Shown: positions 1 through 44,715 of the stretch, one piece after another
Numbering within the stretch: the first letter of the stretch is position 1
How the letters are laid out: each line of letters starts with the position of its first letter
From: a bacterium
GTDB taxonomy: Bacteria; Myxococcota_A; UBA9160; UBA6930
Direction of reading: 5' to 3'
Length of the DNA stretch: 44,715 nucleotides
NCBI GenBank assembly: GCA_024228115.1
Contig: JAAETT010000465.1
Location: 1 to 44,715, forward strand
Position numbers and translations under genes: made by a program
The notes under the pieces: model-generated
Told to the model about the DNA's origin: nothing
Databases searched by the model: none
The model's input: only the letters and a program-made list of their open reading frames with translations

Positions 1-141
1 CAAAGTTAGAGGAATGCCAATCCACCGTAGGTCCCTTCAAGATTTCCCATCCATGGGTAAGAACATCCGCATGACTCTGAACCTCTGTATCGTCCGCTAT
101 CCGATGGATGTTATACTCAACCCCGTCCATCAGAAAAAAGA
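1..141. repeat. Left copy of 141-bp terminal redundancy
   Basis: Bases 1-141 are identical to 44575-44715. This overlap shows that the contig closes into a circle of 44,574 bp. A repeat of exactly 141 bp is what a de Bruijn assembler with k=141 leaves on a circular graph, so it is more likely an assembly overlap than a biological terminal repeat. It lies inside a coding sequence that continues across the join. Confidence 0.95.
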
Positions 142-481
142 ACTCGTGTCCGTTTGTGAGTGCAGATCCTCCAGCCCATTCCGTACCCGCAGTAGCTGTT
201 GCGTCATCTATGGCCCCAGCAGCAAGACACATGAAGAGATGGGTAGCTGCAAGGATCTTGTTGGCAGGTGGAGAGAGCGTGTAGTCCGTATCTGCGCTCG
301 CTCCTGCTCCTTGTTCATCATCACTTGAATCCCTGAGGTAGTCATGGAAAGGCTTTCGAACAGCCGTGGTCATTCCCAGTTCTCGAGCGTTTCCGTCCAC
401 GGTTGCTACTGCTGCCTGTCTCCTCTTCGTGATGATAAGAGGAGTCTTTGACAGCTTGTCCTGGATGGAAACAGGGAACAT
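1..481 (-). CDS. Structural-region protein, 5' part of a gene crossing the circle join
   Basis: The minus-strand frame opens with ATG at 481-479, directly after the stop of the upstream gene (482-484), with GAGG/GGAG Shine-Dalgarno (SD) sequence just upstream. It is open to base 1 and continues at 44574 down to a stop at 44426, giving a 209-residue protein once the contig is closed. The N-terminal part is hydrophilic, and an Ala-rich stretch (about residues 75-105) precedes a beta-rich C-terminal half. I do not recognise the family. Its place between terminase and portal genes suggests a minor virion protein, but that is inference. Confidence 0.85.
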   Translation of the reverse strand, partial: MFPVSIQDKLSKTPLIITKRRQAAVATVDGNARELGMTTAVRKPFHDYLRDSSDDEQGAGASADTDYTLSPPANKILAATHLFMCLAAGAIDDATATAGTEWAGGSALTNGHEFFFLMDGVEYNIHRIADDTEVQSHADVLTHGWEILKGPTVDWHSSNF

Positions 482-1054
482 CTACCGCTCCACCTCAGAG
501 AACTCGATTGAGCATCCAAACTCTCCGGTTCCACTATCAATCGCAGCTATTCCTAAAGACGTCCCCGAGGGAAGAATCAAAGAACCCTTGGTTTCCCAGG
601 GTTCAAATCCACCACTTCCACCAATACCTCTTACCTGTTGAATAAACTGACCCTCCGTGACTCCTCCCATTCCAGTCCCAGTTTCTTCCCAGGAGTCCAC
701 GACATACGTAGAATCAGGTTTCACAGAAGATCCCGAACGAGTACTGTAGACTTGATCACTCACGTTGTTTGTGATGGTTCCAAGAACTGGGTTGAGGTCC
801 ACATATACGATGGTGGTTGAGTTCTCGATATAGAACGAAAAACGTTCTATGACCCAGTCATATTTCGAGGATCCATTCTTGAGGAGAAGCATGTGTCCGA
901 GAGTTGCCGTCAGCGTAAGAAGAGTCCTCGAGCCTGACCCCTGATTCGTGGTAGCAATGAAGGACCGATCACCCTTCGCAGTCCATTGACTGAGCGGGGC
1001 AGCATCTACCAGAAGCCTCCCATCGGTCACCTTGACATTATCCAGAGCACTCAT
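482..1054 (-). CDS. Beta-rich putative virion protein
   Basis: This is a 190-residue protein rich in Ser, Thr, Gly and Val with short alternating hydrophobic stretches, as in beta-sandwich decoration or fibre proteins. It has no signal peptide or transmembrane segment. Its start ATG overlaps the stop of the 44-residue gene upstream as ATGA, and its own stop abuts the next ATG, so translation is probably coupled. It lies between terminase and portal. A head decoration or minor tail protein is possible; no family was recognised. Confidence 0.8.
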   Translation of the reverse strand: MSALDNVKVTDGRLLVDAAPLSQWTAKGDRSFIATTNQGSGSRTLLTLTATLGHMLLLKNGSSKYDWVIERFSFYIENSTTIVYVDLNPVLGTITNNVSDQVYSTRSGSSVKPDSTYVVDSWEETGTGMGGVTEGQFIQQVRGIGGSGGFEPWETKGSLILPSGTSLGIAAIDSGTGEFGCSIEFSEVER

Positions 1055-1185
1055 GATTGCGTATCCTCACTGAACCCGTGATCCAAGTGCTCACGGATCT
1101 CTTTCAGTTGCTCAAGAATCTCCTCGAGCAAGCGAATGACAACAGGTAGCAGGTTGGAGTCAACCTGACTCTCAGGGTTGCTCAT
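1051..1185 (-). CDS. 44-residue coiled-coil microprotein
   Basis: ATG at 1185-1183 opens a 44-codon frame ending in TGA at 1051-1053, which overlaps the next start as ATGA. The middle is a heptad-like amphipathic helix (LLPVVIRLLEEILEQLKEI), followed by a hydrophilic tail. It fills an otherwise empty gap in a tightly packed operon, which supports it being real. A GGTG stretch just upstream is a weak ribosome site. Function unknown; a small oligomerising helix is the only visible feature. Confidence 0.65.
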   Translation of the reverse strand: MSNPESQVDSNLLPVVIRLLEEILEQLKEIREHLDHGFSEDTQS

Positions 1186-1199
1186 CACCCGTGATTCTT

Positions 1200-1397
1200 T
1201 CAGTAGTCCTTGAACGCTGTATTCTTCTGTGGGTTGTTAGGCTCCGTACTTGCCCCTGCCTTATGCGCGGGCATCTTGGGCATGAAAGTTCCACCTGGCA
1301 GGTTCTTCTTGAAGGCCCCTACCATGTCCATGGTGTACTCTGTGCTGTTCGCGTAGTCCGCACAGGACTTCCCGTAGCTCATCTTCTTCTTTGCCAT
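1200..1397 (-). CDS. Small hypothetical protein
   Basis: This 65-residue protein has a basic N-terminus (MAKKKMSYGK) and a Gly/Pro/Asn-rich C-terminal half, with no clear domain. It follows the 117-residue gene by 2 bp and precedes the 44-residue coiled-coil gene. Size and composition suit a small virion-associated or head-completion factor, but nothing in the sequence proves this. Confidence 0.65.
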   Translation of the reverse strand: MAKKKMSYGKSCADYANSTEYTMDMVGAFKKNLPGGTFMPKMPAHKAGASTEPNNPQKNTAFKDY

Positions 1398-1399
1398 GA

Positions 1400-1753
1400 T
1401 CAGAACCCCACAAAGATAACGTCTGTCGTGAACGTGGTCAGGACAGTGGAAGCTGTAAGTGCTGCGTGTTGACTACCCGTAGGTTCTGGGACGGCAGTGG
1501 CATTTCCTGATACCTGAGTATGGAGGTGCGCGTATACAAGAAGCTTGTTGTTCGCGTTGTCCACCTCGAAGTAATACCCACGCCCACCAATCACATGATC
1601 CACGTTCGTCAAACCCAAGAGAGTGGCAGCATTGAAGGTATCTCCACCACTGGTATATGATGCGTTACCAGTCGTTGAAAGAGTCCCAACAATGACTCTC
1701 TTGTTGCCCATCACACTTTCCACGGTCTTCGAGAAAGCCCAGGTAACGGCCAA
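1400..1753 (-). CDS. Small beta-rich putative structural protein
   Basis: This 117-residue protein is dominated by short beta-prone Val/Thr/Ser/Gly stretches and ends in a hydrophobic segment (VLTTFTTDVIFVGF). It resembles the small decoration or stabilisation proteins found near phage terminase and head genes, but no family is identified. An AGGAG-like site precedes the ATG. It lies 21 bp downstream of the terminase nuclease gene in the late direction. Confidence 0.75.
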   Translation of the reverse strand: MAVTWAFSKTVESVMGNKRVIVGTLSTTGNASYTSGGDTFNAATLLGLTNVDHVIGGRGYYFEVDNANNKLLVYAHLHTQVSGNATAVPEPTGSQHAALTASTVLTTFTTDVIFVGF

Positions 1754-1774
1754 TGTTCTTCTCCTAGCAAAGAA

Positions 1775-2707
1775 TCAGAAAATGTTATCCGAGACCCCGC
1801 CAGATAAATCCTCGGAGTCCGCACCAATCATCACCGTGTTTCTATAAGAAGCCCAACACCTCTCCTGGATGCTAGGTCGGTTGAATCCCATCTTCCTTGC
1901 TGTCTCTGAAAGATCCGGACAGCCCTGGATCATGTACCTCAGACAGTCCAGTAGGTGATCGTCCACTGCAATAGGACGCTCACGGATCTCGGTCTCATCT
2001 TGTTTGGCGGGATCAATCTTCTTGTAACGATACTTCTCCACTTCAAAGATAAAGTTCCGCATCGTGCGAAACACGAAGAGAGAAGGTTTTCCGTCATCCT
2101 GGATGTGAAGCCACTTCAGGACGTTTGCGATCCCGTCCTCTACCCGGTTATCAGCGGGACCCGCGAAGATTCCTTCTTCTGCGTACTGGGATGAGAGAGG
2201 TTCGGGAGATTCTGGACGCTGGGAGAACGCAGAGGGATCCATCAGGGTCCAGTCATAGCGCTCTCGAGCTGAGAGAGACCGGATGGCTCCTGAGTTCTCA
2301 GGGACGGTCTTTCTGGAGTGGTAGTATTCCTTGTAGAGGTAGAGAACCCCTTCCGGGCTCAGACATCCCCATAAACAAGCTGTGGGGTTTGCGTAACCCA
2401 GGTCAATAGTTCTGAATCTAGCCCAGGAGGGGTCCAGTTCGATGGGATCGATGATGTGGACCGCGGGGTCCCATGGGGGCATGTAGACCTTCTCACCCTG
2501 GCGAGCCCCAAAGTCCAGCTCCATCTCCGCCCGCCACGCAGCCCCACGGATACCCCCAGGGTAGGACAGAGCCTCGTGCTCAGCCCACTCAGTGGTCTTC
2601 TCAGGGTGTGAAGAGTAATGGTAGGAGACCGCGTTCCAGCCGTTGTAGTACCGCTGGACTTTGATGCCTGGTCTCTCGATGAGGAGTTCAGAGTCTGCTT
2701 CTGCCAT
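1775..2707 (-). CDS. terL: Large terminase, nuclease half (separate gene)
   Basis: This 310-residue protein corresponds to the C-terminal half of a large terminase. Residues 28-70 match the linker usually seen after the ATPase (SYHYSSHPE, then YPGGIRGAAWRAEMELDF). The RNase H-like nuclease follows, with acidic residues D102 in IDLGY, D157 in MDPSA, and D249/D250 with D254 in DDHLLD. In the family this domain cuts concatemeric DNA during packaging. No Walker motifs are present; they lie in a separate gene at 5232-5891. The ATG is preceded by a hairpin whose loop carries the SD sequence. Identification as the nuclease half is strong; whether it works in trans with the ATPase half is inference. 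Confidence 0.92.
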   Translation of the reverse strand: MAEADSELLIERPGIKVQRYYNGWNAVSYHYSSHPEKTTEWAEHEALSYPGGIRGAAWRAEMELDFGARQGEKVYMPPWDPAVHIIDPIELDPSWARFRTIDLGYANPTACLWGCLSPEGVLYLYKEYYHSRKTVPENSGAIRSLSARERYDWTLMDPSAFSQRPESPEPLSSQYAEEGIFAGPADNRVEDGIANVLKWLHIQDDGKPSLFVFRTMRNFIFEVEKYRYKKIDPAKQDETEIRERPIAVDDHLLDCLRYMIQGCPDLSETARKMGFNRPSIQERCWASYRNTVMIGADSEDLSGGVSDNIF

Positions 2708-2709
2708 TC

Positions 2710-2732
2710 AGCCGGCCCCTCCCCGGCCGGCT
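2710..2732 (-). promoter_or_regulatory. Hairpin presenting the ribosome-binding site of the terminase nuclease gene
   Basis: On the transcript strand an 8-bp perfect GC stem (AGCCGGCC / GGCCGGCT) encloses a 7-nt loop, GGGGAGG, which is the SD sequence. The start ATG (2707-2705) follows the stem by 2 nt. Such a stem should affect initiation, so the nuclease half may be under separate translational control. It has no U-tract, so it is not a terminator. Confidence 0.7.
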
Positions 2733-2747
2733 GGGCGGATCCGAGGG

Positions 2748-3755
2748 TCAGGTGAGAAGGGGGAGGTAGAACGCCTCAGTCAGCCGGCCGGGGTGCCACA
2801 TATCGGATACCCATTTGTGACATTTTGTCCCAATTTCCTCAAGCTCTTTCGGGTTCCATTGAAGAATCTTCGCGAGTTCATACCTGAAGTTCTTTGCAAT
2901 CAACCTCATCGTAGGCATCCTCTCACACGTAAAGTCTTTCTCTACAAAGGCTTTCCTTATTTGATATTCAACGTTCTCTGTCAACCCGTGAATGACAACA
3001 CAGCCCGCAGCCATGTACTCCAGCCCTGAGCGGTGGAACCCTCCCGTGACCACCTCATCCACTCCCACCTGGACTGACCGCTTCTTCTCGATGGCCTCCC
3101 AGAGAGGTTCCTTCTCAAGTTCCTCAAGTTTCCACCCGTTAGCACCCTCGTCACTAGTGACCTCCTTCTGGGCGTGCTCGAACCCCTTGCGGATGATCGG
3201 GACTCCCTTGGCCCCTATATAATCTGTGAAGCCTCTCACCGCGAAGGACGTGGAGACCACCTGAGCCCGCTCATTGAAGGGCTTCCATTCCTGGAGCTGG
3301 ACGAGGTAGGGGATCCTTGAGACCGGGACGTCCATGGCCTGATCCCAGATCTGGGACTTCAGCCCCAGGAAGGTGGCTAGTCTCCTGTTCTTGAACGGTC
3401 CCCAGGACCACGGCTGCCAGCCCCAGTAGGGTTCGTAGACGAGCCACGCCTTGGGCCGGTCGTCCTTCTCATCGAAAACTCCATCCTCCCAGCCCACGTC
3501 CATCCTGAGGTGTGGCCCGTTCCCGTGGAGAATGAAGGCGTCCGCCTGATCGTAGAGTAGCCGGTCCACTTTATCCCAGAGGTGGATCTTCCCGAGTGCC
3601 TCCTCAGGCTTAGGGAAGGTTCTTCCGTCTGCTTCCTCGCATCTTCCTGCCACCAAGATGTGCTCGTCATTCGTGTATGTGTTGAGGATCTCTTGGAGGA
3701 CCCAGGGGTATCCCGCGTGCGGACTCAGCGCGATGTGGATGATCTTCCTACTCAT
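2748..3755 (-). CDS. GT-B type glycosyltransferase-like protein
   Basis: This 335-residue protein has an N-terminal beta-alpha start (KIIHIALSPHAGYPW). Near its C-terminus (residues 239-257) is a segment typical of the nucleotide-sugar binding site of GT4-like enzymes: HRSGLEYMAAGCVVI, with the conserved Glu and the small-residue AAG turn. Such enzymes move a sugar from an activated donor to an acceptor. The acceptor here is unknown; phage or host surface glycan, or a virion protein, are options. It overlaps the DUF115-like gene by 4 bp, so the pair is probably co-translated. Unusually, the pair sits between the two halves of the terminase. Confidence 0.75.
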   Translation of the reverse strand: MSRKIIHIALSPHAGYPWVLQEILNTYTNDEHILVAGRCEEADGRTFPKPEEALGKIHLWDKVDRLLYDQADAFILHGNGPHLRMDVGWEDGVFDEKDDRPKAWLVYEPYWGWQPWSWGPFKNRRLATFLGLKSQIWDQAMDVPVSRIPYLVQLQEWKPFNERAQVVSTSFAVRGFTDYIGAKGVPIIRKGFEHAQKEVTSDEGANGWKLEELEKEPLWEAIEKKRSVQVGVDEVVTGGFHRSGLEYMAAGCVVIHGLTENVEYQIRKAFVEKDFTCERMPTMRLIAKNFRYELAKILQWNPKELEEIGTKCHKWVSDMWHPGRLTEAFYLPLLT

Positions 3756-4621
3756 GACTCCTCCTTCGGGTACTCAAGCCACTTCTTTCTCCCAGTACCT
3801 ACCTCTGTCATCCACGTCCCACCCTTTCTCAGACCCTTCTTCAGGCATTCAGGAAGCACGGGAATATTCTTCATCAGGCCCTCCTTCGAAGCCCTGAACA
3901 CCAGACCCCCATTGAAGATCACCTCCCGAGCCCAGGTCTCCGTGATCGAGATCTCCATCATCCAGTGGTGCGGTATCAGACACCTCCGGCAGGGAGCCAG
4001 GTTGGCCTCATAGATAGGAGCGGGCTTGTACCACTTGGTGACGTCGTATCTCGAGATCTTCGTGAGCGAATACGGAAGATAGTCCAGACCCGCCAGGATG
4101 ATCGGAGAACACCCCATCATCCCCGCTGCTAGACAGGCCACGGTGCCTGTCATCCTCACGGAGTAAAGACAGGGAGTTCCTTTCACGTCGGTCATCTGGA
4201 CCATGTCAGACGGTGGTAACATCACGTAGACCTCGTAGTCTTCCTTCTCCCTTCGGGAGGCTATGGTCTCCGAGGCTTCTTTAGCGTGCTTGTCATCTGT
4301 CCTTAAGATAGTAGGGACCTTCAAGTCTTTGAGGAGTTCATTCGCTGCTGGTGGATCCCCAATGACCGCGAAGTCACAATGTTCTTCGATGGCTGCTGCG
4401 TTGCAGGCCATGACCAGACCATCAAAGGTGTCAGGACGGATCGCGTCGTAGGTTGGCCCAGACCCGATAATGAGACATGGACGTCCTTTGTATACCCCGG
4501 TAGCCTGTTCCAGAGCAGAGGCCCCTGCCCGAAGTAGTATCGCACGGGACTCCTCCTTTGCGTTGATATGGACTTCTGGCTTCGTGATCGAGAAGTTCTC
4601 GAAGACCCAGTTCTCACTCAC
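3752..4621 (-). CDS. DUF115/MptE-like protein
   Basis: I place the start at GTG 4621-4619, where GAGGAGG lies 6 nt upstream; the frame stays open further upstream but without such a site. The 289-residue product contains GRPCLIIGSGPT (about residues 46-57) followed by a hydrophobic strand and CNAAA (about 73-77). This is the pattern of DUF115 / 6-hydroxymethylpterin pyrophosphokinase MptE-like proteins, which are often encoded beside glycan or flagellin-glycosylation genes. Later segments (ACLAAGMMGCSPIILAGLDY) fit the same alpha/beta fold. It overlaps the glycosyltransferase gene by 4 bp. A role in glycan or nucleotide-linked sugar chemistry is inference. Confidence 0.7.
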   Translation of the reverse strand: MSENWVFENFSITKPEVHINAKEESRAILLRAGASALEQATGVYKGRPCLIIGSGPTYDAIRPDTFDGLVMACNAAAIEEHCDFAVIGDPPAANELLKDLKVPTILRTDDKHAKEASETIASRREKEDYEVYVMLPPSDMVQMTDVKGTPCLYSVRMTGTVACLAAGMMGCSPIILAGLDYLPYSLTKISRYDVTKWYKPAPIYEANLAPCRRCLIPHHWMMEISITETWAREVIFNGGLVFRASKEGLMKNIPVLPECLKKGLRKGGTWMTEVGTGRKKWLEYPKEES

Positions 4622-4799
4622 CTCTTCCCTCCTCAAGAACGTAGAGCTTGCTACACTTCTTACAGAATCCAAACAACCACCCATGAGCATGATCCATCTC
4701 AAGCTTCCCTTCACACTCCATACAGATCCTCACGTTAGCACTAAGTCTCGCATCACCATGGATCTCTATATCGAAGTACTTGTAAACTTTCTCACTCAC
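4614..4799 (-). CDS. Small zinc-ribbon protein
   Basis: The start is taken as GTG 4799-4797, preceded by GGAGG with 6-nt spacing; a further GTG at 4814 lacks a good site. The 61-residue product has two cysteine pairs, CMEC and CKKC, separated by about 20 residues, the layout of a single zinc ribbon. Its 3' end overlaps the DUF115-like gene by 8 bp. It may be a small nucleic-acid- or protein-binding adaptor; no family is recognised. Confidence 0.7.
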   Translation of the reverse strand: MSEKVYKYFDIEIHGDARLSANVRICMECEGKLEMDHAHGWLFGFCKKCSKLYVLEEGRGE

Positions 4800-4983
4800 C
4801 TTTTCCCTCCCCACTCTTATCCAAGTAATCCGCTAATTCATGCAATTTACTAGGAACCCACCCATACACACCAGAAGTGCCACCCGAATGCAAGATACGA
4901 ACAATCTTTGCCAGCCCTTCGAGAGTCTCTGGTTCCATTGGAGGAATTCCATCTACCTTAGGATCAATCCATGCCCTACTCAC
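4792..4983 (-). CDS. Small hypothetical protein
   Basis: This 63-residue protein begins with GTG in GAGGTGAGTAGG, the same ribosome-site style as its neighbours. It is mostly helical and hydrophilic (PETLEGLAKIVRIL, then SKLHELADYLDK). It overlaps both neighbours by a few bases within the cassette separating the two terminase halves. No function can be given. Confidence 0.65.
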   Translation of the reverse strand: MSRAWIDPKVDGIPPMEPETLEGLAKIVRILHSGGTSGVYGWVPSKLHELADYLDKSGEGKGE

Positions 4984-5222
4984 CTCTTTCTCCTTTTCCT
5001 TTTGACCCAGATAACACTATTGTCCCTCACTGGTGGCTTAGAATGGACTCTCACCAAGAGAGGATCCTCCCATGGCATGATTGTCTCCGTGATCTGACCC
5101 CACCGATGTCTGTGTTGGATGATATCGCCCGTCTTCTCACTCACGTCATAGTAGGCCCACCAGTCTCTCTCACGTCTCCTGAGCATCTCTCTCTTGCACA
5201 CCGGGCACTTGGCTATCTCCAT
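4980..5222 (-). CDS. Small zinc-binding-like basic protein
   Basis: This 80-residue protein starts with a CPVCKREML knuckle and ends in a strongly basic tail (WVKRKRRKR). Only one CxxC is present, so full zinc binding would need the nearby His residues (HRH) or dimerisation. It has GAGGTTGTC just before its ATG and begins 9 bp after the terminase ATPase stop. A nucleic-acid-binding accessory protein is plausible but unproven. Confidence 0.65.
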   Translation of the reverse strand: MEIAKCPVCKREMLRRRERDWWAYYDVSEKTGDIIQHRHRWGQITETIMPWEDPLLVRVHSKPPVRDNSVIWVKRKRRKR

Positions 5223-5231
5223 GACAACCTC

Positions 5232-5891
5232 CTATGCTGACCACCTCCCCTCGAAGATACTTTGGAATTCCCCAGGAGCAGGACTGGATATCAAGATAAG
5301 CTTACCGCCCCCGTGAAGCGTGGGCTTGGCTCCTACGATCGTCTGACCCAGAGCATCCTGGAACGCAGCCTCATCGAACACCATGCCCGAGAACGTGTGC
5401 ATCCGCGCTTGGTTTGATCCCTGAGGCATAGCCATTACCTGAGACACAGGACCATTCGGATGTTCGAACGTGTTCCTCACCTCAGTAGGTCTCAGGCGGT
5501 GCTCATTCTTCATCCAGGAAGGAAGATAGTGGTAACAAAGGCCCATCCTTGTCTCCCCGATGAGCTTTGCTGCATCATCTTCTTTCTTGCTCACGATACC
5601 CCACAACCTCCCAGGTTTGCGTAGGCACTCCCACATCACCATAGCCACCGCTAGCCATGAACACATCAACTGCCTAGACTTGTTGATCACTATGTGCTCG
5701 TTCGCTGGCAAATCCTGCCAGAGCTTCGCGATCACCTCGATGGGTTCAATCACTCGGAACCGCTTGACGGGGTCCTTCTCATCGTGCTCATCCATCGTGT
5801 ACACGAAGGACTTGAGGAAGAGAATGGCATCATCCTTGGCATGAGCCCACGCCATACGCTGAATAGCTTCTTCGGATGGCCTAGCCATCAC
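5232..5891 (-). CDS. terL: Large terminase, ATPase half (separate gene)
   Basis: This 219-residue protein matches the N-terminal packaging motor of a large terminase. A Walker A-type loop in the variant common to terminases, INKSRQLMCS, lies at about residues 69-78. Walker B, MVFDEA, lies at 170-175, and the coupling motif LISSPA at 200-205. It ends just after the coupling motif at FEGRWSA with a normal stop, so it has no nuclease domain; that is encoded 2.5 kb downstream (1775-2707). An SD for the next gene immediately follows the stop, so this is an organised gene boundary, not a simple frameshift. In the family this domain drives DNA into the procapsid. Confidence 0.92.
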   Translation of the reverse strand: MMARPSEEAIQRMAWAHAKDDAILFLKSFVYTMDEHDEKDPVKRFRVIEPIEVIAKLWQDLPANEHIVINKSRQLMCSWLAVAMVMWECLRKPGRLWGIVSKKEDDAAKLIGETRMGLCYHYLPSWMKNEHRLRPTEVRNTFEHPNGPVSQVMAMPQGSNQARMHTFSGMVFDEAAFQDALGQTIVGAKPTLHGGGKLILISSPAPGEFQSIFEGRWSA

Positions 5892-6245
5892 TCATCTTCT
5901 CTGAGTGTACATGCGTGATGTCTCAAGAAACTCTCGCTTCCAACTCCAATCATCAAGCCACAACTGAGCGAACTCATCTTTAGATAACTCAATCTGATCA
6001 TCAACGCTTGCTCCAACCATAGCCAAGGCACGCTTATACTCAGGCGTATGATCAACTGGACGTGGTAGTTGAACATACACTTCTTCCACTTTCCCATTAC
6101 GAATTCTCTCAATATGCTCTTCAAGCAATTCCACCGCTCTCTTTTTGTAACCCTCGAGAGCATCCTCAAAGTCACTTCGATGCTTACGAAGATTCTGCTC
6201 TAGTGCTCTTTTAAGACCAATTTTCTCAACCTTAACTGTCTTCAC
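5892..6245 (-). CDS. Conserved phage protein, coiled-coil N-terminus
   Basis: This 117-residue protein has a long charged helix (residues 5-50) followed by VYVQLPRPVDHTPEYKRAL and a C-terminal block with SVDDQIELSKDEFAQLWLDDWSWK. I recall this pattern, a Pro-rich turn, then acidic DD..ELS..EF, then W.WK, as a recurring small protein of unknown function in many unrelated tailed phages; that is from memory. It overlaps the regulator gene upstream by 4 bp and abuts the terminase ATPase gene. A packaging-related role is only suggested by position. Confidence 0.75.
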   Translation of the reverse strand: MKTVKVEKIGLKRALEQNLRKHRSDFEDALEGYKKRAVELLEEHIERIRNGKVEEVYVQLPRPVDHTPEYKRALAMVGASVDDQIELSKDEFAQLWLDDWSWKREFLETSRMYTQRR

Positions 6246-6559
6246 TTGTTTCCCTCCTCACCAAGCTTCTCCAAGAAGTTCAGTACATCCTTCGGATTTT
6301 GACGGATGGTCTCCTTGAAGGTGTCAGGGATTATCCCACTCAGAAGCATCAGCCATTCAGGGTCCACTCCCAAAGAGATCCCTAGAGAGCGAATCAAGTC
6401 CTGACTCGGTTCCGAGTTGTCCCTCTCGATCTGGTTCAGGTACTCGTGACTGATTTCGCATTCCCTTGCCACTGCTCTGAGGGACATCCCCTTCTTCCGC
6501 GTCCGAAAGTACTTGATCGCTTGTCCCAGAGTCACCGTCCTCTGATTCATCTTGTTCAT
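6242..6559 (-). CDS. Cro/CI-type (XRE) helix-turn-helix regulator
   Basis: This 105-residue protein carries a classical XRE domain at residues 11-66: LGQAIKYFRTRKKGMSLRAV, then ARECEISHEYLNQIERD and a Pro-Ser followed by a final helix. Such proteins bind palindromic operators as dimers. Candidate palindromes occur in the divergent control region (13.26, 13.67 and 14.34 kb), but the link is inference. The N-terminal 203 bp lie inside the 3' end of the upstream gene in another frame. AGAGGA lies close before the ATG. No integrase is present, so it need not be a lysogeny repressor; being in the minus-strand arm, it could control the early arm. Confidence 0.85.
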   Translation of the reverse strand: MNKMNQRTVTLGQAIKYFRTRKKGMSLRAVARECEISHEYLNQIERDNSEPSQDLIRSLGISLGVDPEWLMLLSGIIPDTFKETIRQNPKDVLNFLEKLGEEGNK

Positions 6560-7052
6560 GTTCCTCTATCCTTGCGTGCCCAACGCCAATCTCCTCCGCA
6601 ATCTGTCTCTTCAGCTCATCAGGGAAGGACTTGATGAACTCCACGATACTACCTTCTTCCTTGGGCCCTCCTTGGTGGGCTGTAAGGTCCACCACCTTCT
6701 TGTAGAGACCTCTCACTTCGCCCACGTTCTTCATGGCCATAGTGATCATGTGAGGAGTAGCCTCGGGATTCTCAATCACCGTGAGCGCTGTGAGATATTG
6801 AAGCTCCACCTCAATGGGAGTATTTTCTGGGAGGGCATCCAGGGCTTGCATGAGACGATCTTTGAGGGCTCTACGAAACTCCATCTTCGTTTGCAGGTTC
6901 TTGAACTTCGCCTTGTTACGATAGTAGTCTCCATCTATGTGGATGAAGGAGGTAGTGTCCCGCTTAGTGATTCTCTCACCCAGGAGTCCCCCATCCGGGG
7001 TCTCTGTCCACTTCTCAACCCTCGGGTGTGGTTTCTTCGGTGGGTTGCTCAC
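6357..7052 (-). CDS. Hypothetical protein, possible small terminase candidate
   Basis: This 231-residue protein starts with GTG. Residues 1-155 are mixed helical and include a run of long helices (TKMEFRRALKDRLMQAL, PIEVELQYLTAL, MITMAMKNVGEVRGLYKKVV). From about residue 160 it becomes an acidic, Ser/Gly-rich low-complexity tail, exactly where it is overlapped in another frame by the XRE gene. Its place two genes upstream of the terminase ATPase and its helical make-up make it a weak small-terminase candidate. It overlaps its upstream neighbour by 38 bp. Confidence 0.65.
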   Translation of the reverse strand: MSNPPKKPHPRVEKWTETPDGGLLGERITKRDTTSFIHIDGDYYRNKAKFKNLQTKMEFRRALKDRLMQALDALPENTPIEVELQYLTALTVIENPEATPHMITMAMKNVGEVRGLYKKVVDLTAHQGGPKEEGSIVEFIKSFPDELKRQIAEEIGVGHARIEEHEQDESEDGDSGTSDQVLSDAEEGDVPQSSGKGMRNQSRVPEPDREGQLGTESGLDSLSRDLFGSGP

Positions 7053-7404
7053 GTTTCTTTCCTTCGAGGTATAGCTTTCCCATTTCTCTCACGATGCTAT
7101 CTACACGTTCCCTGAACTCATCAGCAGTCATCTCCTTCACTTCTATTCCAGAATCATCCCCTATCACCGACATAGCCGGATTGATATCCGCCACAACATC
7201 ATGAAGAGTCCACAATGCCTTTGTTTGATCGTCTCGAGGAGTCCCATCTGGGAACCTCACGAGTAGGAACGAGAAGCTACAATCCACGATACGCGCACGG
7301 AGGGCTCTCTCCAGCTCTACGCACCGCTCGCACCGCGGTCCCGGATAGGCCATCTGGGCAGCGTCACTCTTCGAGGGCTTGGTCTGGGAGTTCTCTCCCT
7401 TCAT
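7015..7404 (-). CDS. Hypothetical protein with CxxC
   Basis: This 129-residue protein has CERCVELERAL near the N-terminus and a C-terminal acidic/basic helical region (MTADEFRERVDSIVREM). It overlaps the neighbouring genes by 38 and 41 bp. Only one CxxC pair is seen. No family recognised; the tight overlaps support expression within the same operon. Confidence 0.65.
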   Translation of the reverse strand: MKGENSQTKPSKSDAAQMAYPGPRCERCVELERALRARIVDCSFSFLLVRFPDGTPRDDQTKALWTLHDVVADINPAMSVIGDDSGIEVKEMTADEFRERVDSIVREMGKLYLEGKKREQPTEETTPEG

Positions 7405-7690
7405 CGATCACCTCTTGTTCCCTCTTGGGATTCACAAGGGACGGATCTAGCGCATCCAGAAGAGGCCCCTTTGAGATCTCAGGGCCCAGCTCCACCACTT
7501 CTTCTTCTGTCACCTTCAAAGTGATCTCAGCTTTCACAAAGATCTCATGCAGTTGCTCAAGACAAGAGAACGCTTCAGGCTTGGATATCCAACGCCTGTC
7601 ACCCGTGGAGAGTTGCACCTGAACACCTTGAATACCTGGGTATCCAAGAGCTTTGAGAAACCTCGCCACAACGTTGTCAGTTGGATCCAT
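7364..7690 (-). CDS. Hypothetical protein
   Basis: This 108-residue protein has an N-terminal compact region (VVARFLKALGYPGIQGVQVQ) and a strand-helix stretch containing EITLKVTEEEVVEL. The C-terminus is acidic. It overlaps the next gene by 41 bp and starts 9 bp after the 49-residue basic gene. No recognised domain. Confidence 0.65.
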   Translation of the reverse strand: MDPTDNVVARFLKALGYPGIQGVQVQLSTGDRRWISKPEAFSCLEQLHEIFVKAEITLKVTEEEVVELGPEISKGPLLDALDPSLVNPKREQEVIDEGRELPDQALEE

Positions 7691-7699
7691 CGGTCCCTC

Positions 7700-7849
7700 C
7701 TACTTCTTCTTGGGGGAAGACTTCTTTTTGAGAGGCTTCCCGGTCTTGTAACTTTGGCCCGTTGAGTCTTGACAGACTGCGTAGGGGTTCACCCCTGGCT
7801 TCTTCTTGAGCTTCTGAACACAACGATGTACTTTCGTACCCTTGGGCAT
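7700..7849 (-). CDS. 49-residue Lys-rich microprotein, conserved phage type
   Basis: ATG at 7849-7847 is preceded by a perfect AGGAGG with 6-nt spacing (AGGAGGTAACA); the frame ends at TAG 7700-7702. The product begins MPKGTKVHRCVQKLKKK, continues PGVNPYAVCQDSTGQSYKTGK and ends in a Lys/Ser tail. Short basic proteins of this pattern with a conserved NPYAVC core recur in many phages and other mobile DNA; that is from memory and their function is not known. The two Cys could bind metal or form a bridge. The strong ribosome site supports it as a real gene. Confidence 0.8.
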   Translation of the reverse strand: MPKGTKVHRCVQKLKKKPGVNPYAVCQDSTGQSYKTGKPLKKKSSPKKK

Positions 7850-7858
7850 TGTTACCTC

Positions 7859-8356
7859 CTATGCTCCGGGGTTAACACCGAGTTGACCACTACCCGTATC
7901 CATCTCTCTCGGAGTAGACTCAGGAAGGTCCAGGGGTGTCGTGGGCCTGATATAGTCAGCCAAGAACTTCTCACACTTCACAACGGTTGCGATCAGACGC
8001 GCGGAATCAAAGCTCAGGAGACCGGACGGCATCCTTGCGGATTGAGAGTTCGTCAATTCAAACCGACAGATGTCCAGCATCCGGCACACATCGTTCACAG
8101 ACTCGTTTTCCGTGTCCACGAGTTCTGTGTTCTCTTCGAGAACCCACTTACGAGGTGCGGACTCAGGGAGGTCCAGTTGAGGCTGAGCAACAACCCAGTC
8201 ATGGTAGCGATGAACAGCGCTCATATACGACTGGAGTCTGTCTGCATCGAAGATTGAGACAACCGCTGTGTTTGAGGATGCAGACTTTTGGAGTTCTGTC
8301 AGGAATCGATTCAAGCGGGCATGAAGCCCTACCACGTCATGATTGAATACTTCCAC
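7859..8356 (-). CDS. Hypothetical protein with internal LDLPES repeat
   Basis: Start is taken as GTG 8356-8354, with AAGGAG 7 nt upstream, just after the methyltransferase stop. The 165-residue product is largely helical and contains two copies of a short motif, LDLPESAPR at about residue 60 and LDLPESTPR near the C-terminus, each followed by a polar stretch. No family recognised. The repeat suggests two similar linear binding elements. Confidence 0.7.
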   Translation of the reverse strand: MEVFNHDVVGLHARLNRFLTELQKSASSNTAVVSIFDADRLQSYMSAVHRYHDWVVAQPQLDLPESAPRKWVLEENTELVDTENESVNDVCRMLDICRFELTNSQSARMPSGLLSFDSARLIATVVKCEKFLADYIRPTTPLDLPESTPREMDTGSGQLGVNPGA

Positions 8357-24665: not shown

Positions 24666-27600
24666 CTACCTCGAGGGGAATGCGTCGTCATAAGCCCCCG
24701 CAGCAAAAAGACCCTGGCTTTCTAGTCCCCTTCTCGCGCTCCCTCTCCTGCGCTCCCATCGGGTCTTGGTGAGTCTTCCGTGGATAGCTTTCGCACGTCC
24801 CCACAGCCACGTCTCCGTGGGGTAGTTCTTCATCAACCAAAGAACAATGGTTCCAGGGTTGGAACTCATGACCCACTTCTCTTCAGCAAGGGCTTTCTGC
24901 GCGTCGTTCGTGATCTGCTGTCTCCGAGATGACTCCTCGCCTCCCACATCCCTGAGTCTGGCAGTCTCCCTGCGGTAGAGCTGAGTGTTCAGATCCTTCG
25001 CTCCTACTGCCTTCTTCAGGTGAAGGGTGATGTCCCCGTCATCGATGAGTTCCCCGGTGTCTCTGTCCCTGAAGACCCCTCCTGACATGAGGGAAACAGT
25101 GCTGTTCACGAAGTTCAGTAGCCCGATAGGTGCCAGCTTCTCGTACAGAGGCCCCTTGAAGTTTCTCTTGACGTCCGCTAGGGCCTTGTCACGGGCGTAC
25201 TCGTTACCTTCCAGGGTGGACTGGCCCAGCTCGAAGACATCCATAGCTTGCTGGGCGAAGGGGCCGGGTCCGAATGCGTGCATCGCTGAAGGATAAGGAG
25301 TCCAGATCATTCTCCGACCTGCAATCTCCACCTCTTCGGACATCTCAGGGCCTGCGAACCAGTTCATGATGTCTATGCCCAAGAGCTGACCCATGGTGAA
25401 GACTGCAAGGTTGGCCTGGATGGTCAGTCTGAGGGGAACGCTGAGGGACTTGACTCCAGCTCCGACGCCACCATATCGAAAGGCATTTCCGACGGTACCA
25501 ACCATTGAGTGAGTGATATTGAGTGGCCAGGTAGCGAGCATTCCAACCATTCGTGACAAAGGGCCTCCTTGGATCGCCATCGGAGTACCCATTTTACCGT
25601 ACTTGAATTGCCACTTGTCAACGAAGTGTCTGGCATACATGAATCTGGCTTCATCGATGGCTCCACTTTTCACGAGTCCAAGGACGGTATTCCCAATGGC
25701 CGGGGCCTGTTGCGCAGCAAGGATACCATTACGGAACTTTTGGATGGCTCCCTTATCCCCCCGCATGACTCCTTCAGCGTGTCTCTCGAGGGTAGTATCG
25801 AAGCGTGACTCAGCAGCTGCGTTTGTCATGGCCCGGTTGAACATATCCGAGATCCGGATCATGACCATCGAGGTGTCCGTGGCCTTCTGGTAGACGTCTC
25901 CCACTCGAGAGCGGAGCATCGATGGTTCACTGGTCAGGGCAGGTTCGAACTGATCAATCAGTCCCTTATCCTGGAGCCTCTTCACTTCATCAATGAAACT
26001 CTGATGTCCCCTACTGAATAGCTTTTGAGCTGCTTTGACACCGTGGTACATGCCCAGCTCAGAGAGTGCGATGTTCGTCTGGAACATATCCCTGAGCATG
26101 TTCATGGGCTTGAGACCCACATAGTGCATATAGGCACCAGACGTTAGTACGCCTGAAATCTTATCACCAAAAAAAGGATCACCCATGGCTCGCTGGAAGT
26201 ACTCCGAGCCCGTCATCTGGTGCATCATACGCGCAAAGTTATTCGCGCTATCCTTGATGAACCTTTCCTTCTTGGTAGGGCGTCCTAGCGCGCGTTGGAT
26301 GAAGGTGGTCCACATATCCAACACGCCCTGTGAGGACTCACCGTAGTTGTTCCGGATGAAAAGAAGCTGTTCCTTAGCCTGCTCCACGGGCCCCTTCAAG
26401 AACTTCTTCTTGGTGCCAGCACTGACGTACTTCTCAAGAAGGATGAGAGGATCCTTGATGAGCTGTTGCTTGGCGTCAGGCTTGCCCTTACGTGGCTTCT
26501 CATACCAGACGTCTATGTCCTCGAGGCGTTCACCCACGTCCGCAGCCATGCGGTTGAGAGTCTCATTCAGGTGGGAGATGTAGTTCTTTCGGTAGCGCTT
26601 GACTCCGAACTCAGTGAATAGTTCATCGAAGATCTCCCGAAAGACCTTCGAGATTCTTTCTACCTTGGGTCGGATCTCTGATGGGACCGATGAGACTGGA
26701 ACTCCATCGAGGACATCGTAAACCCAGGTACTCTCCTGGCGGGTCATCCCCACTCCGCGCTCGAAGACTCCGAATATGGAATTCTTCCGAACAGCTCCCA
26801 CCGCATGAAGTCTGTTCGTGATGCCCTTCATGGTCTTCTTGAAGTAGGGCACTGATAGATCCAAGGCTGTACGGACTGGGTTGTAGACCCTAGTGAAGAT
26901 GTGGTAGTAGCCCGGGTCAGGTTGCCCACGATTCTCCTGGCGGTAGGCCACCTCGTGGATCTGCTTGAGTTGATCGAGGAAACTAGCCTTGGGCGGAGGA
27001 AGATCTCTGGCAGGGGGAATCTCCGAGTTCTTCCCGAGAGATGCCTCGAGGGCTTCGTGGCGAGCTGTGCGAGCTGCCTTGATCTCCTCAGCGGTGACAA
27101 GTCCCTTACCTAGGTCCAAGTCCCACCGGCGAAGAGATCTCATCCTCCGGATGAAGTCCCTCATGGCCCGGGTGATGCCCCCACCTCCAGCCCCCAGCAT
27201 CTCGAACCTGGACCCTGAGGCCACTTCGATGTAGTCCGCCACAGGACCGTGAAGGAGATCCTCCGCCCCCACTCCCTGGGATCTCCTACGCTTGGCCATG
27301 TCCTTGAAGTGGTCCATGGCGAATCTCTCTTCTACCGGGAATCCACCCGCAATCTGGGCATACCGATACTGGGACAAATTGTCCCAGAGCCTCTCGGGTG
27401 GAAGATGTCTGCGCCAATCCTCCATCGTGGTGCCGTGGGGTCTGTACTCGGGAGCCCGGGGGTTGAAGACCGCGAAGTCCTGCCACTCTCCACCTGGCAT
27501 CCGGGACTGAAGAATCTCGTACTCCACCCCCTTCAAGCGGGTGCGCTTGTACTGGACCTCAGCTCCCACGGGAGGAGGCTCTGGAGCTAACCACTCTAGC

Positions 27601-31251: not shown

Positions 31252-31809
31252 TCATACTCTGAAGAGAACAATCCTCACCGTCCTCTGATGCTGTCCGTCC
31301 GCAAGATACTTGAATGCCACCGTAGAATCAGTCCACAGATTGTCAGGGTCACCCGCCCCGAGACTCCCGTGAGGAATGGGCCACCCAAGAAGTCTCCCAT
31401 TGCCTATGGTTGATACAGACTTAGGATACTCGTTATCCCACACAAAAGCCCACCGGGTGGGAGTGAATCCAAGATCATGAGTGATGCTCTTGTAGTATTC
31501 ATCAGTCTCTCCCGTACCAGTCCCATCAGTGTGCATTATGAACTGAAAGGAAGGAGCAGCCGGCATCCCCAGATTGTTCACCGTATCCACAGCTTGCTGC
31601 ATGGCTGAGAGGTCTTCCCGCAGGTCCCCATGCCTGCGAGCCTCGATCGGATCATCATGACGAGGGACGTTGTCACGTACAAACGAACGTCCAAAGGATG
31701 GCACCCGTGAGATGATGTCAGTGATGGCCAAGGGGCGTCCTCCCTTCGGTCCTGGAGGAATGCTCGGGACAATAGGCTTGATGCGAGGGATAGTCTCTGA
31801 AACTGTCAT
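31252..31809 (-). CDS. Hypothetical tail-region protein
   Basis: This 185-residue protein has a Pro-rich N-terminus (PRIKPIVPSIPPGPKGGRP) and a beta-rich C-terminal half (FQFIMHTDGTGTGETDEYY ... TVRIVLFRV). Its ATG overlaps the stop of the 1437-residue gene (ATGA). A small tail or fibre attachment protein is plausible; no family recognised. Confidence 0.65.
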   Translation of the reverse strand: MTVSETIPRIKPIVPSIPPGPKGGRPLAITDIISRVPSFGRSFVRDNVPRHDDPIEARRHGDLREDLSAMQQAVDTVNNLGMPAAPSFQFIMHTDGTGTGETDEYYKSITHDLGFTPTRWAFVWDNEYPKSVSTIGNGRLLGWPIPHGSLGAGDPDNLWTDSTVAFKYLADGQHQRTVRIVLFRV

Positions 31810-38707: not shown

Positions 38708-40003
38708 TTAGACCACGTCCGTGCCTTCAACGTCATCGATCTTCGAACAGCCACCTGGCTTTGTAGTCACCAGCTCACCGAAGAAGAAGATGATCGCGAT
38801 ATAGGCGGGTTCACCTGTAGGAGCCAGGTGGAGGATGGAGCCATCTTCGTCCATCCAGTCAAAGTCAGCCAAGCGCGCGATATAAACGAGACGCTTGTCC
38901 AAGGCAAGAATGGAGTTCTGAGGCGCGAACTTATCTGGAACAATCGGGATGCCGTTGTACTCGATGAAGTCCATGGCATCATCGTTCTCAGCGTAGCCCG
39001 CAGGAAGCCTCATCGTGTTGGGATAGCGCTTCTGAAGTAGCTGCTGTTGCTCGAAGGCATCCCTAACACCGAAGGTCGTCACGAAACAATTGATCTTCCC
39101 ACCGGCCTTGATGTTCGCAGCATCAATGGACTGCTGAAGCAAGGTAGTAGAGACAGTACGGTTGGTCCCACCGTTCCCCAGAATCGTGGAGTTGAACCAA
39201 GCATTCGCGGTTCTATCGATGTTCTGGAGATTCGTGACACCAGCAGTCGTGTAGAGATACGGGTTCGTTTCCGCGATAACACCATCGAGACCCATCATCT
39301 CGTGACGTTGATCTCGGGTTCTCGCACCCGCACGACCGACCATGTACTGAGTAGCAGTACCAACAGTCACGTCTTGGTTAAACGTGATGATCCCAGTGTT
39401 CGTTGCCACATTTGTAACTCTTATCCCTTGATAGAGAATCGAGTCATCCGTAGACACGCCAGTAGGATCTGTGTGTGAAGTCGTTGCGTTGTCATCCCAG
39501 ACGTCACATAACATCTGCTCACCAAACCGGCGGGCTTCTGCTGCAACACTGAGAGTCATCGTTGTAGTAGAATGTGATGCGATACCGCTGGGGGCCAAGT
39601 CACAGTCACCATTGCCAAGGATAACCCTGTTCAGGTCATCCTTCATGTCAATCGGAAGTCCCTCCACCTCTGTGCGAATCGCCCGAGCAAACGCACCAGC
39701 GGATGAACGAGACTGACTGATGACTTCTTGTCTGACCTTCAGTTGCCCGTAGTAGTACTTCGGGGGAATCTTCAGGTCCTCGTATCCTTGAGCCCCGGCA
39801 ACAGGTACGTTCGCTGTGCTTCCAATGAAGCCAAACCCTTGGTTTCGCGTCTTGCGTACCGGAATGACCATCTCACGACCGCCCTCATCATCCTTCTTAT
39901 CAAGGATTCCGTAGACGGTGTCTTTGGAGTTCAGCTCATCCCGGATCGGACCAAGGTAGACTTCCTTCAGCACAGCATCGAACGTGCTGAGGGTAGTTGC
40001 CAA
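38708..40003 (-). CDS. Major capsid protein (HK97-like)
   Basis: This 431-residue protein has an N-terminal arm (FDAVLKEVYLGPIRDELNSK) of the kind common in HK97-fold capsid proteins, a central region with VRKTRNQGFGF and VAGAQGYEDLKIPPKYYYG, and a C-terminal part with FIEYNGIPIVPDKFAP and LAPTGEPAYI. It lies after the scaffold gene, the expected order. The start codon is TTG at 40003-40001, behind AGGAG with 7-nt spacing; the frame has a stop upstream and no ATG before the arm. A copy of residues 5-34 occurs in the 24105-24311 gene. Confidence 0.9.
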   Translation of the reverse strand: MATTLSTFDAVLKEVYLGPIRDELNSKDTVYGILDKKDDEGGREMVIPVRKTRNQGFGFIGSTANVPVAGAQGYEDLKIPPKYYYGQLKVRQEVISQSRSSAGAFARAIRTEVEGLPIDMKDDLNRVILGNGDCDLAPSGIASHSTTTMTLSVAAEARRFGEQMLCDVWDDNATTSHTDPTGVSTDDSILYQGIRVTNVATNTGIITFNQDVTVGTATQYMVGRAGARTRDQRHEMMGLDGVIAETNPYLYTTAGVTNLQNIDRTANAWFNSTILGNGGTNRTVSTTLLQQSIDAANIKAGGKINCFVTTFGVRDAFEQQQLLQKRYPNTMRLPAGYAENDDAMDFIEYNGIPIVPDKFAPQNSILALDKRLVYIARLADFDWMDEDGSILHLAPTGEPAYIAIIFFFGELVTTKPGGCSKIDDVEGTDVV

Positions 40004-40989: not shown

Positions 40990-43158
40990 TTACTGGAAAG
41001 CCGTACGGGTAGCTGTATCCATGCCCTGCATTGGCCCCATGGGTGCCGTAGGCCCTGCCGGGTACGGCGCCGGGGCTGCTCCAGGGGCACCCCCATCAGG
41101 ATTCGTTTGACGATTGGTATCACCTCGATCGCGCAAATCCCTAGAGGGTGCTGAAGAACCTTCCTGAGATTCCTCTTTTCCGTTCTCTCCAGGCTTACCC
41201 TGAGCCTGCTGCATCCCCATCATCATCATGTGATGAAGCTGCAAATGCTGCTCAAGGAATGCCGTGAGTTGAGGGTCATCCCGGAAGGTATCAGTCTGAA
41301 GGGCTTCTCGGTGAAGAGCCACATGGATGATGTGGTTCTCATGCCACCTTGGCATCGGTAAGGGGAAGCCTCTTTTCGCAGCCAAATTCTCTTGGCGTGC
41401 CAATCTATCGTCAACCTCTGACGTATCGAACGCCAGAGCAGTATCTTCTAGTTCAAGGTAGTGATGGAGCCACGCTCTATCCGCAGGGTCCATCGGGTTC
41501 TTGATCCCGCTCTTGACCAGTACCTCGGATATCTGAAGAGCGAGAGCTTTGTTCTTGGGAATGGCGGATGAGGGGTCCACGTATACGTCTGAGTGTCCTC
41601 TCAGATCCGCCCCCGTCCACTCAGTAACCTCCCACCGCTTGTCTGTCCCGAAGAGCCGTAGGATACGGTTCTCTCCCACCATGGGATGAACAACCTTCAG
41701 GACTTGCCTACCCCAGTCCTTGTGTGCGTAGGCTACCCGCTTGGTAGGAGGTGTCATGTCCCGCACGTCTTGTTCGATGAGCTGAGCCAGGGCAATCCCA
41801 CTCATCCTCTGAGAGGCCATCCCTCGAGAGGCTGAGAAGGACACCGAAGTATGGTCCATGGCCCTCTCAACGGTCTCGAGGAGGAACCTGTAGGCAGACT
41901 CCGCGAACGCAGGGGGGTTCATGTAAGAGGGAGGCATGGCTCCGTTGTACTCAACTCTCTCTCCTGGCTCTGAAGTGAGGGCTGAGTCAGGCACATTGGA
42001 CTGACGGTTGATGAGAACCTTTGGATGACCATGCAGGATGAGACACTCAAGGAACTTTCCGATGACCCTGTTGTAGACCCTTTGCTCGGGGATGAGGTGA
42101 TCGATGACCGACTGTCCCCAGAGCCTCCCCGGGATCATAATGTCCTTGGCCATGCAGAACGGGAGTTCTTCTCCGTAGGGATTCTCATCATTCTCACAGA
42201 CTGTAGAGCCCGCGATGACTACCTTGCGCCCCTCCTCGAATTCTTCGGAGCCTCCAGCCCTAAGCCACATCTCCTTGACGGTGACGAATTCTCCCTTTCC
42301 TGGGGTACTCTCTACTCCGTGCCTGAACCCAGAAGGTCCGATCAGGTTGAGAAGAGTTCTCTCGTAGTGACGGGCCTCATCTATGTTCGAGACGTTTTCT
42401 CTCTCAATCAGGTCAGCCTTGTCAGGGTACTGACGGTAGACCCACTCCAGTGGTCTCTCAGTAACCTGGATAGCCCACTCGGTATCCTCCCAGGTGGCAG
42501 CGTTCGGGATGTACATTTGGAAGGGTGAGACTACCTCGGTACGAATATCCCCCTGATGGTATGCCTTCGTGATAGGTGTTCCATCTCGATCATAGAGAGG
42601 GAGTTCGGTTTTCTGATCGAACTGAGGGACATCCACCATGTCCCCGACTGAGGCATCCCACGTTACCTTGTAGAAGGCTGTCCCGCAGGTGACTAGCCAG
42701 CGCACGAACTCCTGGCGCTGGGAGTCCATATCAGAGAATTCCCAATAGTGCCTGAGGACTTTGTCTCCTAGGTTGGCAGCACGAAAATCGTCCTCGTCTG
42801 CAGTCTTGGGTCGTACCCTGAGTTCAGGGGTGGAAGTGAGAAGTGTGGAGTGTCGTTGCTCGACATACTCAATGATTTTGTTAAAGGGCTGACGTATCCG
42901 CCACCTTGGTACATCGGAACGGTATACCAATCCACCGTAGTGGTCTGACCAGTAGTGATAATGGTAGCCTGCCAAAAATCCGATGTTAATGAACCACTGC
43001 TTCTCAAGGGCTCGCTTGGCTGTATCCGTTGGCCTCCATCTCTCTTCAACAAAGTTGTATGCCTCCGCTTCTTCTGGTGTGACAGTGTGCGCTTGTTTCC
43101 TCGCTAGCTTGCGCTGGCGTGCGTTCTCTCGTGCCTGGAGCGGACTGACAAAAGCCAT
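40990..43158 (-). CDS. Portal protein (podovirus type)
   Basis: This 722-residue protein is of P22/T7-like size. Early residues include RALEKQWFINIGFLAGYHYHYW, then RWRIRQPFNKIIEYVEQRHS and a DGTPI.KAY region. Portal-like central segments follow (WAIQVTERPLEWVYRQYPDK; PFCMAKDIMIPGRLWGQSVI). The C-terminus is Gln/Gly/Pro-rich. The order portal, scaffold, capsid is standard. In the family it forms the 12-mer ring through which DNA is packaged and ejected. Confidence 0.88.
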   Translation of the reverse strand: MAFVSPLQARENARQRKLARKQAHTVTPEEAEAYNFVEERWRPTDTAKRALEKQWFINIGFLAGYHYHYWSDHYGGLVYRSDVPRWRIRQPFNKIIEYVEQRHSTLLTSTPELRVRPKTADEDDFRAANLGDKVLRHYWEFSDMDSQRQEFVRWLVTCGTAFYKVTWDASVGDMVDVPQFDQKTELPLYDRDGTPITKAYHQGDIRTEVVSPFQMYIPNAATWEDTEWAIQVTERPLEWVYRQYPDKADLIERENVSNIDEARHYERTLLNLIGPSGFRHGVESTPGKGEFVTVKEMWLRAGGSEEFEEGRKVVIAGSTVCENDENPYGEELPFCMAKDIMIPGRLWGQSVIDHLIPEQRVYNRVIGKFLECLILHGHPKVLINRQSNVPDSALTSEPGERVEYNGAMPPSYMNPPAFAESAYRFLLETVERAMDHTSVSFSASRGMASQRMSGIALAQLIEQDVRDMTPPTKRVAYAHKDWGRQVLKVVHPMVGENRILRLFGTDKRWEVTEWTGADLRGHSDVYVDPSSAIPKNKALALQISEVLVKSGIKNPMDPADRAWLHHYLELEDTALAFDTSEVDDRLARQENLAAKRGFPLPMPRWHENHIIHVALHREALQTDTFRDDPQLTAFLEQHLQLHHMMMMGMQQAQGKPGENGKEESQEGSSAPSRDLRDRGDTNRQTNPDGGAPGAAPAPYPAGPTAPMGPMQGMDTATRTAFQ

Positions 43159-44447: not shown

Positions 44448-44715
44448 CCCCTTAGCGAAACTCGGTGGTCTTTATACACGAGGGCGGATAGCGCGTCGTT
44501 GACTCTCCACACCACCTTGTCTCCTGGAAACAGAAACATCGGGGTTGGCAATGTGTATCTGTAGAAGACATAGTCAAAGTTAGAGGAATGCCAATCCACC
44601 GTAGGTCCCTTCAAGATTTCCCATCCATGGGTAAGAACATCCGCATGACTCTGAACCTCTGTATCGTCCGCTATCCGATGGATGTTATACTCAACCCCGT
44701 CCATCAGAAAAAAGA
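44426..44715 (-). CDS. 3' part of the structural gene crossing the circle join
   Basis: This is the C-terminal end of the 209-residue protein whose 5' part is at 1-481; bases 44575-44715 duplicate 1-141. It ends in YKDHRVSLRGWVEDFK with a stop at 44426. Segments such as YVFYRYTLPTPMFLFPGDKV look like a beta domain. Function unknown. Confidence 0.85.
   Translation of the reverse strand, partial: FFLMDGVEYNIHRIADDTEVQSHADVLTHGWEILKGPTVDWHSSNFDYVFYRYTLPTPMFLFPGDKVVWRVNDALSALVYKDHRVSLRGWVEDFK
44575..44715. repeat. Right copy of 141-bp terminal redundancy
   Basis: Identical to bases 1-141, which closes the contig into a circle. See the left copy for interpretation. Confidence 0.95.

Follow-up and report, generated by a model that had tools for sequence, protein, structure and literature searches.

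A phage large terminase encoded by two genes, with a five-gene operon at their junction

In models of viral DNA packaging the large terminase carries its ATPase core, its lid and its nuclease on one chain, and this mechanical continuity converts ATP hydrolysis into DNA movement. The contig JAAETT010000465.1 of assembly GCA_024228115.1, analysed here over its whole length of 44,715 nucleotides (the window), raises the question whether a packaging motor can also be built from two proteins. Its large terminase (terL) is laid out as two genes with five other genes between them. An earlier reading of the letters alone (the sequence-only reading) had attributed the split of the gene to a glycan-type cassette, and had suggested that the motor may assemble from two polypeptides. 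We conclude that the window very probably codes for a large terminase that naturally consists of two chains, that this state is old and inherited within one clade in which a Gly of the P-loop is replaced by Met, and that the junction of the two genes later took up the five-gene operon.

Two genes for one terminase

Both halves carry the PHROG label terminase large subunit, and the split with five open reading frames (ORFs) between 5232 and 2707 was confirmed by PHROG, profile and Foldseek matches (Table 1). The reference hidden Markov model (HMM) combines 74 viral-contig terminases of the single-ORF type with three seeds, identical rows dropped, and has 520 positions. The two products match it colinearly and without overlap, with 14 model positions in the gap at the break and a few extra residues on each chain beside it. 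The ATPase gene starts at GTG 5891 or ATG 5888, and its ORF stops just past the coupling motif SSPAP. The motifs KSRQLMCSW and MVFDEA are also present, as supported by profile and fold matches, although the P-loop is deviant and has no GK. The second product holds D102 (2404-2402), D157 (2239-2237) and D254 (1948-1946), which we take to be the expected metal-binding triad. It matches nuclease domains of the D6E/P22/SPP1 type by profile (1e-14), and its model finds the D6E, P22 and SPP1 terminases in Foldseek, down to 4e-10. The two domains that a TerL should have on one polypeptide are thus found on two ORFs, with five genes between.

We mapped the break by sequence onto gp17 of phage T4, using subdomain limits that we assume for this protein. 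It falls at gp17 residues ~300-308, past the coupling motif and ahead of the second lid segment, and therefore the lid and the linker lie on the nuclease chain. This mapping places the break within the ATPase domain, between core and lid, and not at the domain hinge. The core of the window aligns with T4 gp17 and the Terminase_6N type over nearly its full length (A6 profile E 1.5e-20; Foldseek 8e-7) and shares the position of the coupling motif. However, gp17 is a single chain with a Gly-Lys P-loop, while the core described here is a separate protein with K-S-R-Q-x-Met. Likewise, the RNase H-like nuclease resembles that of D6E, P22 and SPP1 in profile and fold, but there it is the C-terminal domain of a single protein and here it is a separate chain that carries lid and linker.

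Since the halves are in different reading frames and an in-frame TGA stands directly 5' of the nuclease ATG, a single frameshift or stop does not explain the split, in agreement with the sequence-only reading. Each half has a start, a stop and a ribosome-binding site of its own. The source is a metagenome assembly, and an assembly or sequencing error could in principle separate the halves. We regard such an error as extremely improbable, because the frames differ, the contig is circular, GC content is uniform, the 4.1-kb terminase region has a single copy in the metagenome-assembled genome (MAG), and the identical split site recurs in dozens of independent assemblies. The assembly is circular as judged by an exact 141-bp terminal direct repeat; it is one contig of a 700-contig MAG and represents a phage of ~44,574 bp (44.6 kb).

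A single terminase mRNA could still be restored if one or several group I or II introns removed the middle genes. In Bastillevirinae and the Jug phages, terL is indeed divided in the genome by group I introns that are spliced (PMC11878797; Jug phages PMC12363816), and herpesvirus UL15, with UL16/UL17 between its parts, yields one protein through splicing that spans up to five genes (PMC3079670). In the window, however, positions 1-8000 gave no group I or II intron match at E<=1 in Rfam, with one irrelevant chance match only, and 16 split relatives gave no intron match either. Moreover, overlapping ORFs occupy the gap, in which stretches of ~9 nt and ~40 nt are non-coding, the halves have their own translation signals, and in many relatives they overlap or abut, which leaves an intron no space. 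Splicing is therefore very unlikely. A split intein was rejected as well, since 12 aa of the ATPase ORF follow its last residue matched by the profile and the leader of the nuclease has 21 aa, so that intein halves have no space. The absence of intron and intein signatures in the sequence-only reading was thus borne out. We also rejected a chimera of two terminase lineages, which the differing best phage matches of the halves might have suggested: one fused-family profile covers both with equal scores, and both fall within the split clade described below. A comparable layout exists in MEP401-type phages, in which the DNA polymerase, also a core phage enzyme, is divided over two ORFs separated by a small one (PMC10580990); the enzyme is a different one, and splicing is not settled there.

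A clade with split terminases

Scans of viral contigs and genome contigs with either half as a single-protein query gave no matches. Relatives were obtained via the capsid and portal genes and via the DNA pattern of the P-loop. One-gene terminases are the rule in capsid- or portal-related phages (Shocker, ctEqG8, SV21 and IMG/VR contigs), and the P-loop Gly is present in 66/66 fused relatives, whereas the window has Met. The DNA pattern of the Met-type P-loop takes no account of splitting; it hit at least 120 viral contigs, of which 80 were analysed as loci. All 80 contain a terminase ATPase; 66 are split and have their nuclease in an ORF of its own, downstream and on the same strand, 6 are fused and 8 undecidable. 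Clustering at 80% identity gave 60 clusters (47 split, 6 fused, 7 undecided). The split site is constant: in 46 of the 47 split clusters the match of the ATPase ORF ends at profile position 210-219 of 221. Of the split clusters, 22 have their halves no more than 100 nt apart, 7 have them 100-300 nt apart and 18 more than 300 nt apart, with 8 of the latter above 1 kb. In seven pairs the genes overlap by four bases in the ATGA manner of translational coupling. A survey of relatives, one of the checks proposed with the sequence-only reading, thus found the split shared. As a trait inherited throughout the clade, the two-polypeptide packaging motor itself appears well supported.

The Gly-type comparison set is biased toward fused genes because it was retrieved by full-length queries. 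Two less biased controls gave the same picture. Relatives selected by capsid carry fused terminases, and in 377 bacterial genomes searched with the split-clade ATPase profile all ten non-window matches belong to ORFs that are 448-682 aa long, and the eight that were readable have a Gly P-loop. Fused homologues without intervening genes, named beforehand as a sign of misassembly, do exist, but they belong to a different clade and gave no evidence of misassembly.

In a tree of the ATPase domain a branch with support 100/99 sets the Met-type proteins apart from the rest; its support is 99 with the P-loop masked. The split label changes 5 times in the first tree, 4 times in a careful tree and 3 times in the masked tree, against ~22 for shuffled labels. 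In these unrooted trees this is most simply read as one split followed by a few re-fusions, the probable direction of change. The six fused Met-type terminases (L148, L156, L166, L176, L181, L209) fall in roughly three positions within the split clade and are candidate re-fusions. The window has what we propose as the marks of a KSR[QR]xM clade, namely the Met-type P-loop, an ATPase ORF that ends past the coupling motif, and a separate ORF for lid and nuclease. The phage thus belongs to a large, apparently uncultured clade with two-gene terminases. Among 50,697 GenBank phage records none matched the ATPase of L170 or the nuclease of L194 over 80% of their length, while the ATPases of L184 and the window reach distant T4-like and jumbo phage terminases at ~24-28% identity. 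We found no two-protein terL in the open literature, although one may still be described elsewhere, and the domain-length PHROGs phrog_7579 (239 positions) and phrog_5653 (199 positions) may include other split terminases.

An exception among the capsid- or portal-related phages is L024 (IMGVR_UViG_3300031576_000173, 1-3700), which has a split terminase and a portal 30% identical to that of the window. The ATPase ORF of L024 stops at 1962, and two small ORFs separate it from the nuclease ORF, which begins at 2831. Because this terminase has a Gly-type P-loop and breaks at a different place, after the lid, it represents a second, independent split.

The replacement of the P-loop Gly and a fused terminase on C550, another phage contig of the same MAG, would fit a broken or decaying terminase in a phage that is defective or uses the terminase of a helper. 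Conservation of both chains makes this a poor explanation with little chance of being right. Invariant residues are K71, S72, R73, M76, W79, R115, P124, R163, D173, E174 and S202 in 20 split ATPases; the search pattern itself set K, R, M and W of the P-loop wholly or in part. In 17 split nucleases D102, D157 and D254 are invariant, as are H30, W41, W58 and E61 of the lid part. The conserved set thus includes functional residues, that is the Asp and Glu of Walker B, the P-loop Arg, the coupling Ser and the nuclease triad. Both chains, lid part included, therefore appear to be under selection and neither looks decaying. Both frames are intact, catalytic residues are kept in ~50 divergent lineages that share the split as well as the Met, and the phage retains its own portal and capsid genes. 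Decay deduced from the Gly-to-Met change was dropped as an argument, since the same change occurs in dozens of lineages. No other ORF of the phage genome matches terminase profiles, so that a second complete terminase, which would have spoken against the two-gene reading, was not found there. The terminase on C550 (C550:37270-37872, L009) is of a different type.

The nearest kin of the window are L170 and L211, with 38% and 34% identity in the ATPase, 27-28% in the nuclease and 30% in the portal. In both, an ATGA overlap (GAATGATCC) joins the two terminase genes, with no cargo in between. The split is therefore older than the cassette of the window, and most likely the five genes entered a pre-existing junction. 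The tight coupling of start and stop in relatives suggests that co-translation is the ancestral arrangement. The idea that the cassette itself split the gene and that its position sets separate doses of the halves draws on the five intervening genes and on a GC-rich hairpin 5' of the nuclease start. It did not hold up against the nearest kin, which are split without a cassette, nor against the absence of any relatives of the five middle genes from the 80 Met-type loci, and we consider it improbable. The hairpin has a z-score of -0.14 against shuffled sequence, which is ordinary for its composition. Nonetheless, with a Shine-Dalgarno sequence in its loop it may act in putative translational control and modulate the dose of the nuclease.

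Cargo at the junction and the surrounding genome

The sequence directly 3' of the ATPase stop codon is TAGGAGGTTGTCATG. The five middle genes overlap each other by GTGA or ATGA or a few more bases and have their own Shine-Dalgarno sequences. Their GC content is 0.45-0.56, compared to 0.43-0.55 in the surrounding genes. Of the labels given in the sequence-only reading, the DUF115/MptE one finds a match below the cut-off over 23 residues, and the GT-B glycosyltransferase-like protein has no significant match in the family libraries searched. The label "glycan" for these genes thus appears weak.

Other members of the clade carry different cargo at this place. L149 (1019-6548) has a B12-binding radical-SAM (S-adenosylmethionine) protein and a family-2 glycosyltransferase; one ORF of this cargo also looks MptE-like by eye, without a Pfam match. 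Further cargo includes a cytidylyltransferase (L186), a DNA methylase (L185) and a sigma-70 region 4/helix-turn-helix protein (L184), and zinc-ribbon-like proteins occur in L139, L184 and L199. Sugar-related genes are present at the junction in more than one clade member, yet no homology between the cargo of other split loci and that of the window was detectable. The gene junction behaves as a tolerated and recurrent insertion site.

Downstream of the capsid genes lie two very large ORFs of 1593 aa (24666-29447) and 1437 aa (31806-36119), whose products are probably virion-associated.

Table 1. Coordinates of the terminase genes, the genes between them and other features of the window
Feature	Position	Strand	Evidence
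Direct terminal repeat	1..141	.	Identical to 44575-44715; circular assembly
Terminase lid/linker and RNase H-like nuclease gene, 310 aa	1775..2707	-	phrog_5653 E 1.5e-12; HMM 236-495, E 3.6e-24; Foldseek D6E E 4e-10
9-bp GC-rich hairpin, GGAGG in loop	2709..2733	-	Perfect stem, directly 5' of nuclease start codon
335-aa protein, glycosyltransferase-like in the sequence-only reading	2748..3755	-	ATGA overlap with upstream gene; no significant family match
MptE/DUF115-like protein, 289 aa	3752..4621	-	Likely start GTG 4621; Pfam MptE-like E 0.0075, below cut-off, 23 residues
Small zinc-ribbon-like protein (CMEC...CKKC)	4614..4799	-	Weak sub-threshold matches only
Small protein, 63 aa	4792..4983	-	GTGA overlap with upstream gene; no family match
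Small zinc-ribbon-like protein, 80 aa	4980..5222	-	ORF and TAGGAGGTTGTCATG; Shine-Dalgarno overlaps ATPase stop codon; no significant family match
Terminase ATPase-core gene, 219 aa	5232..5891	-	phrog_5989 E 3e-9; HMM 15-221, E 1.6e-24; Foldseek T4 gp17 ATPase E 8e-7
P-loop KSRQLMCSW	5655..5681	-	Sequence; Met at Walker A Gly position, Lys at N-terminal end of loop
Major capsid protein, podovirus type	38708..40003	-	NF033394 E 1e-49
Portal protein	40990..43158	-	~30% identity to portals of L170, L211 and L024

A packaging motor of two chains

How such a motor might work can be outlined from the placement of the break. The first gene would supply the ATPase core, corresponding to NsubI of T4 gp17 with P-loop, Walker B and coupling motif, and the second the lid and linker together with the RNase H-like nuclease. 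Most likely the two chains associate non-covalently at the portal, where ATP hydrolysis in the core chain would move the lid on the nuclease chain, and DNA would thereby be moved or cut. Several points weigh against a working two-chain motor. The structure model of the ATPase is of low confidence (predicted local distance difference test, pLDDT, 59), and residues 1-72 of the nuclease half did not resolve when modelled alone. The Gly-to-Met change could weaken ATP binding. In addition, the ATPase and nuclease domains of the T4 enzyme keep their activities when separated from the hinge but lose translocation (PMC9958956). However, the hinge was lost in those constructs, whereas here lid, hinge and nuclease share one chain.

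On balance we favour a broader view, with less confidence than the two-chain reading of the window itself. A large uncultured clade would permanently use a two-protein, non-covalent motor, made of a Gly-to-Met ATPase core and of a chain for transmission and nuclease; the covalent tie between core and lid would be dispensable for translocation, and the junction would be a recurrent cargo site. terL serves as a marker in phage classification and is split in a clade without a close match among the phage records searched; domain-length filters on terL would therefore miss this clade. As a nucleotide-binding variant, the Met-type P-loop is unexplored. With its break between core and lid, a natural two-chain motor would offer a ready-made system for asking which link transmits force.

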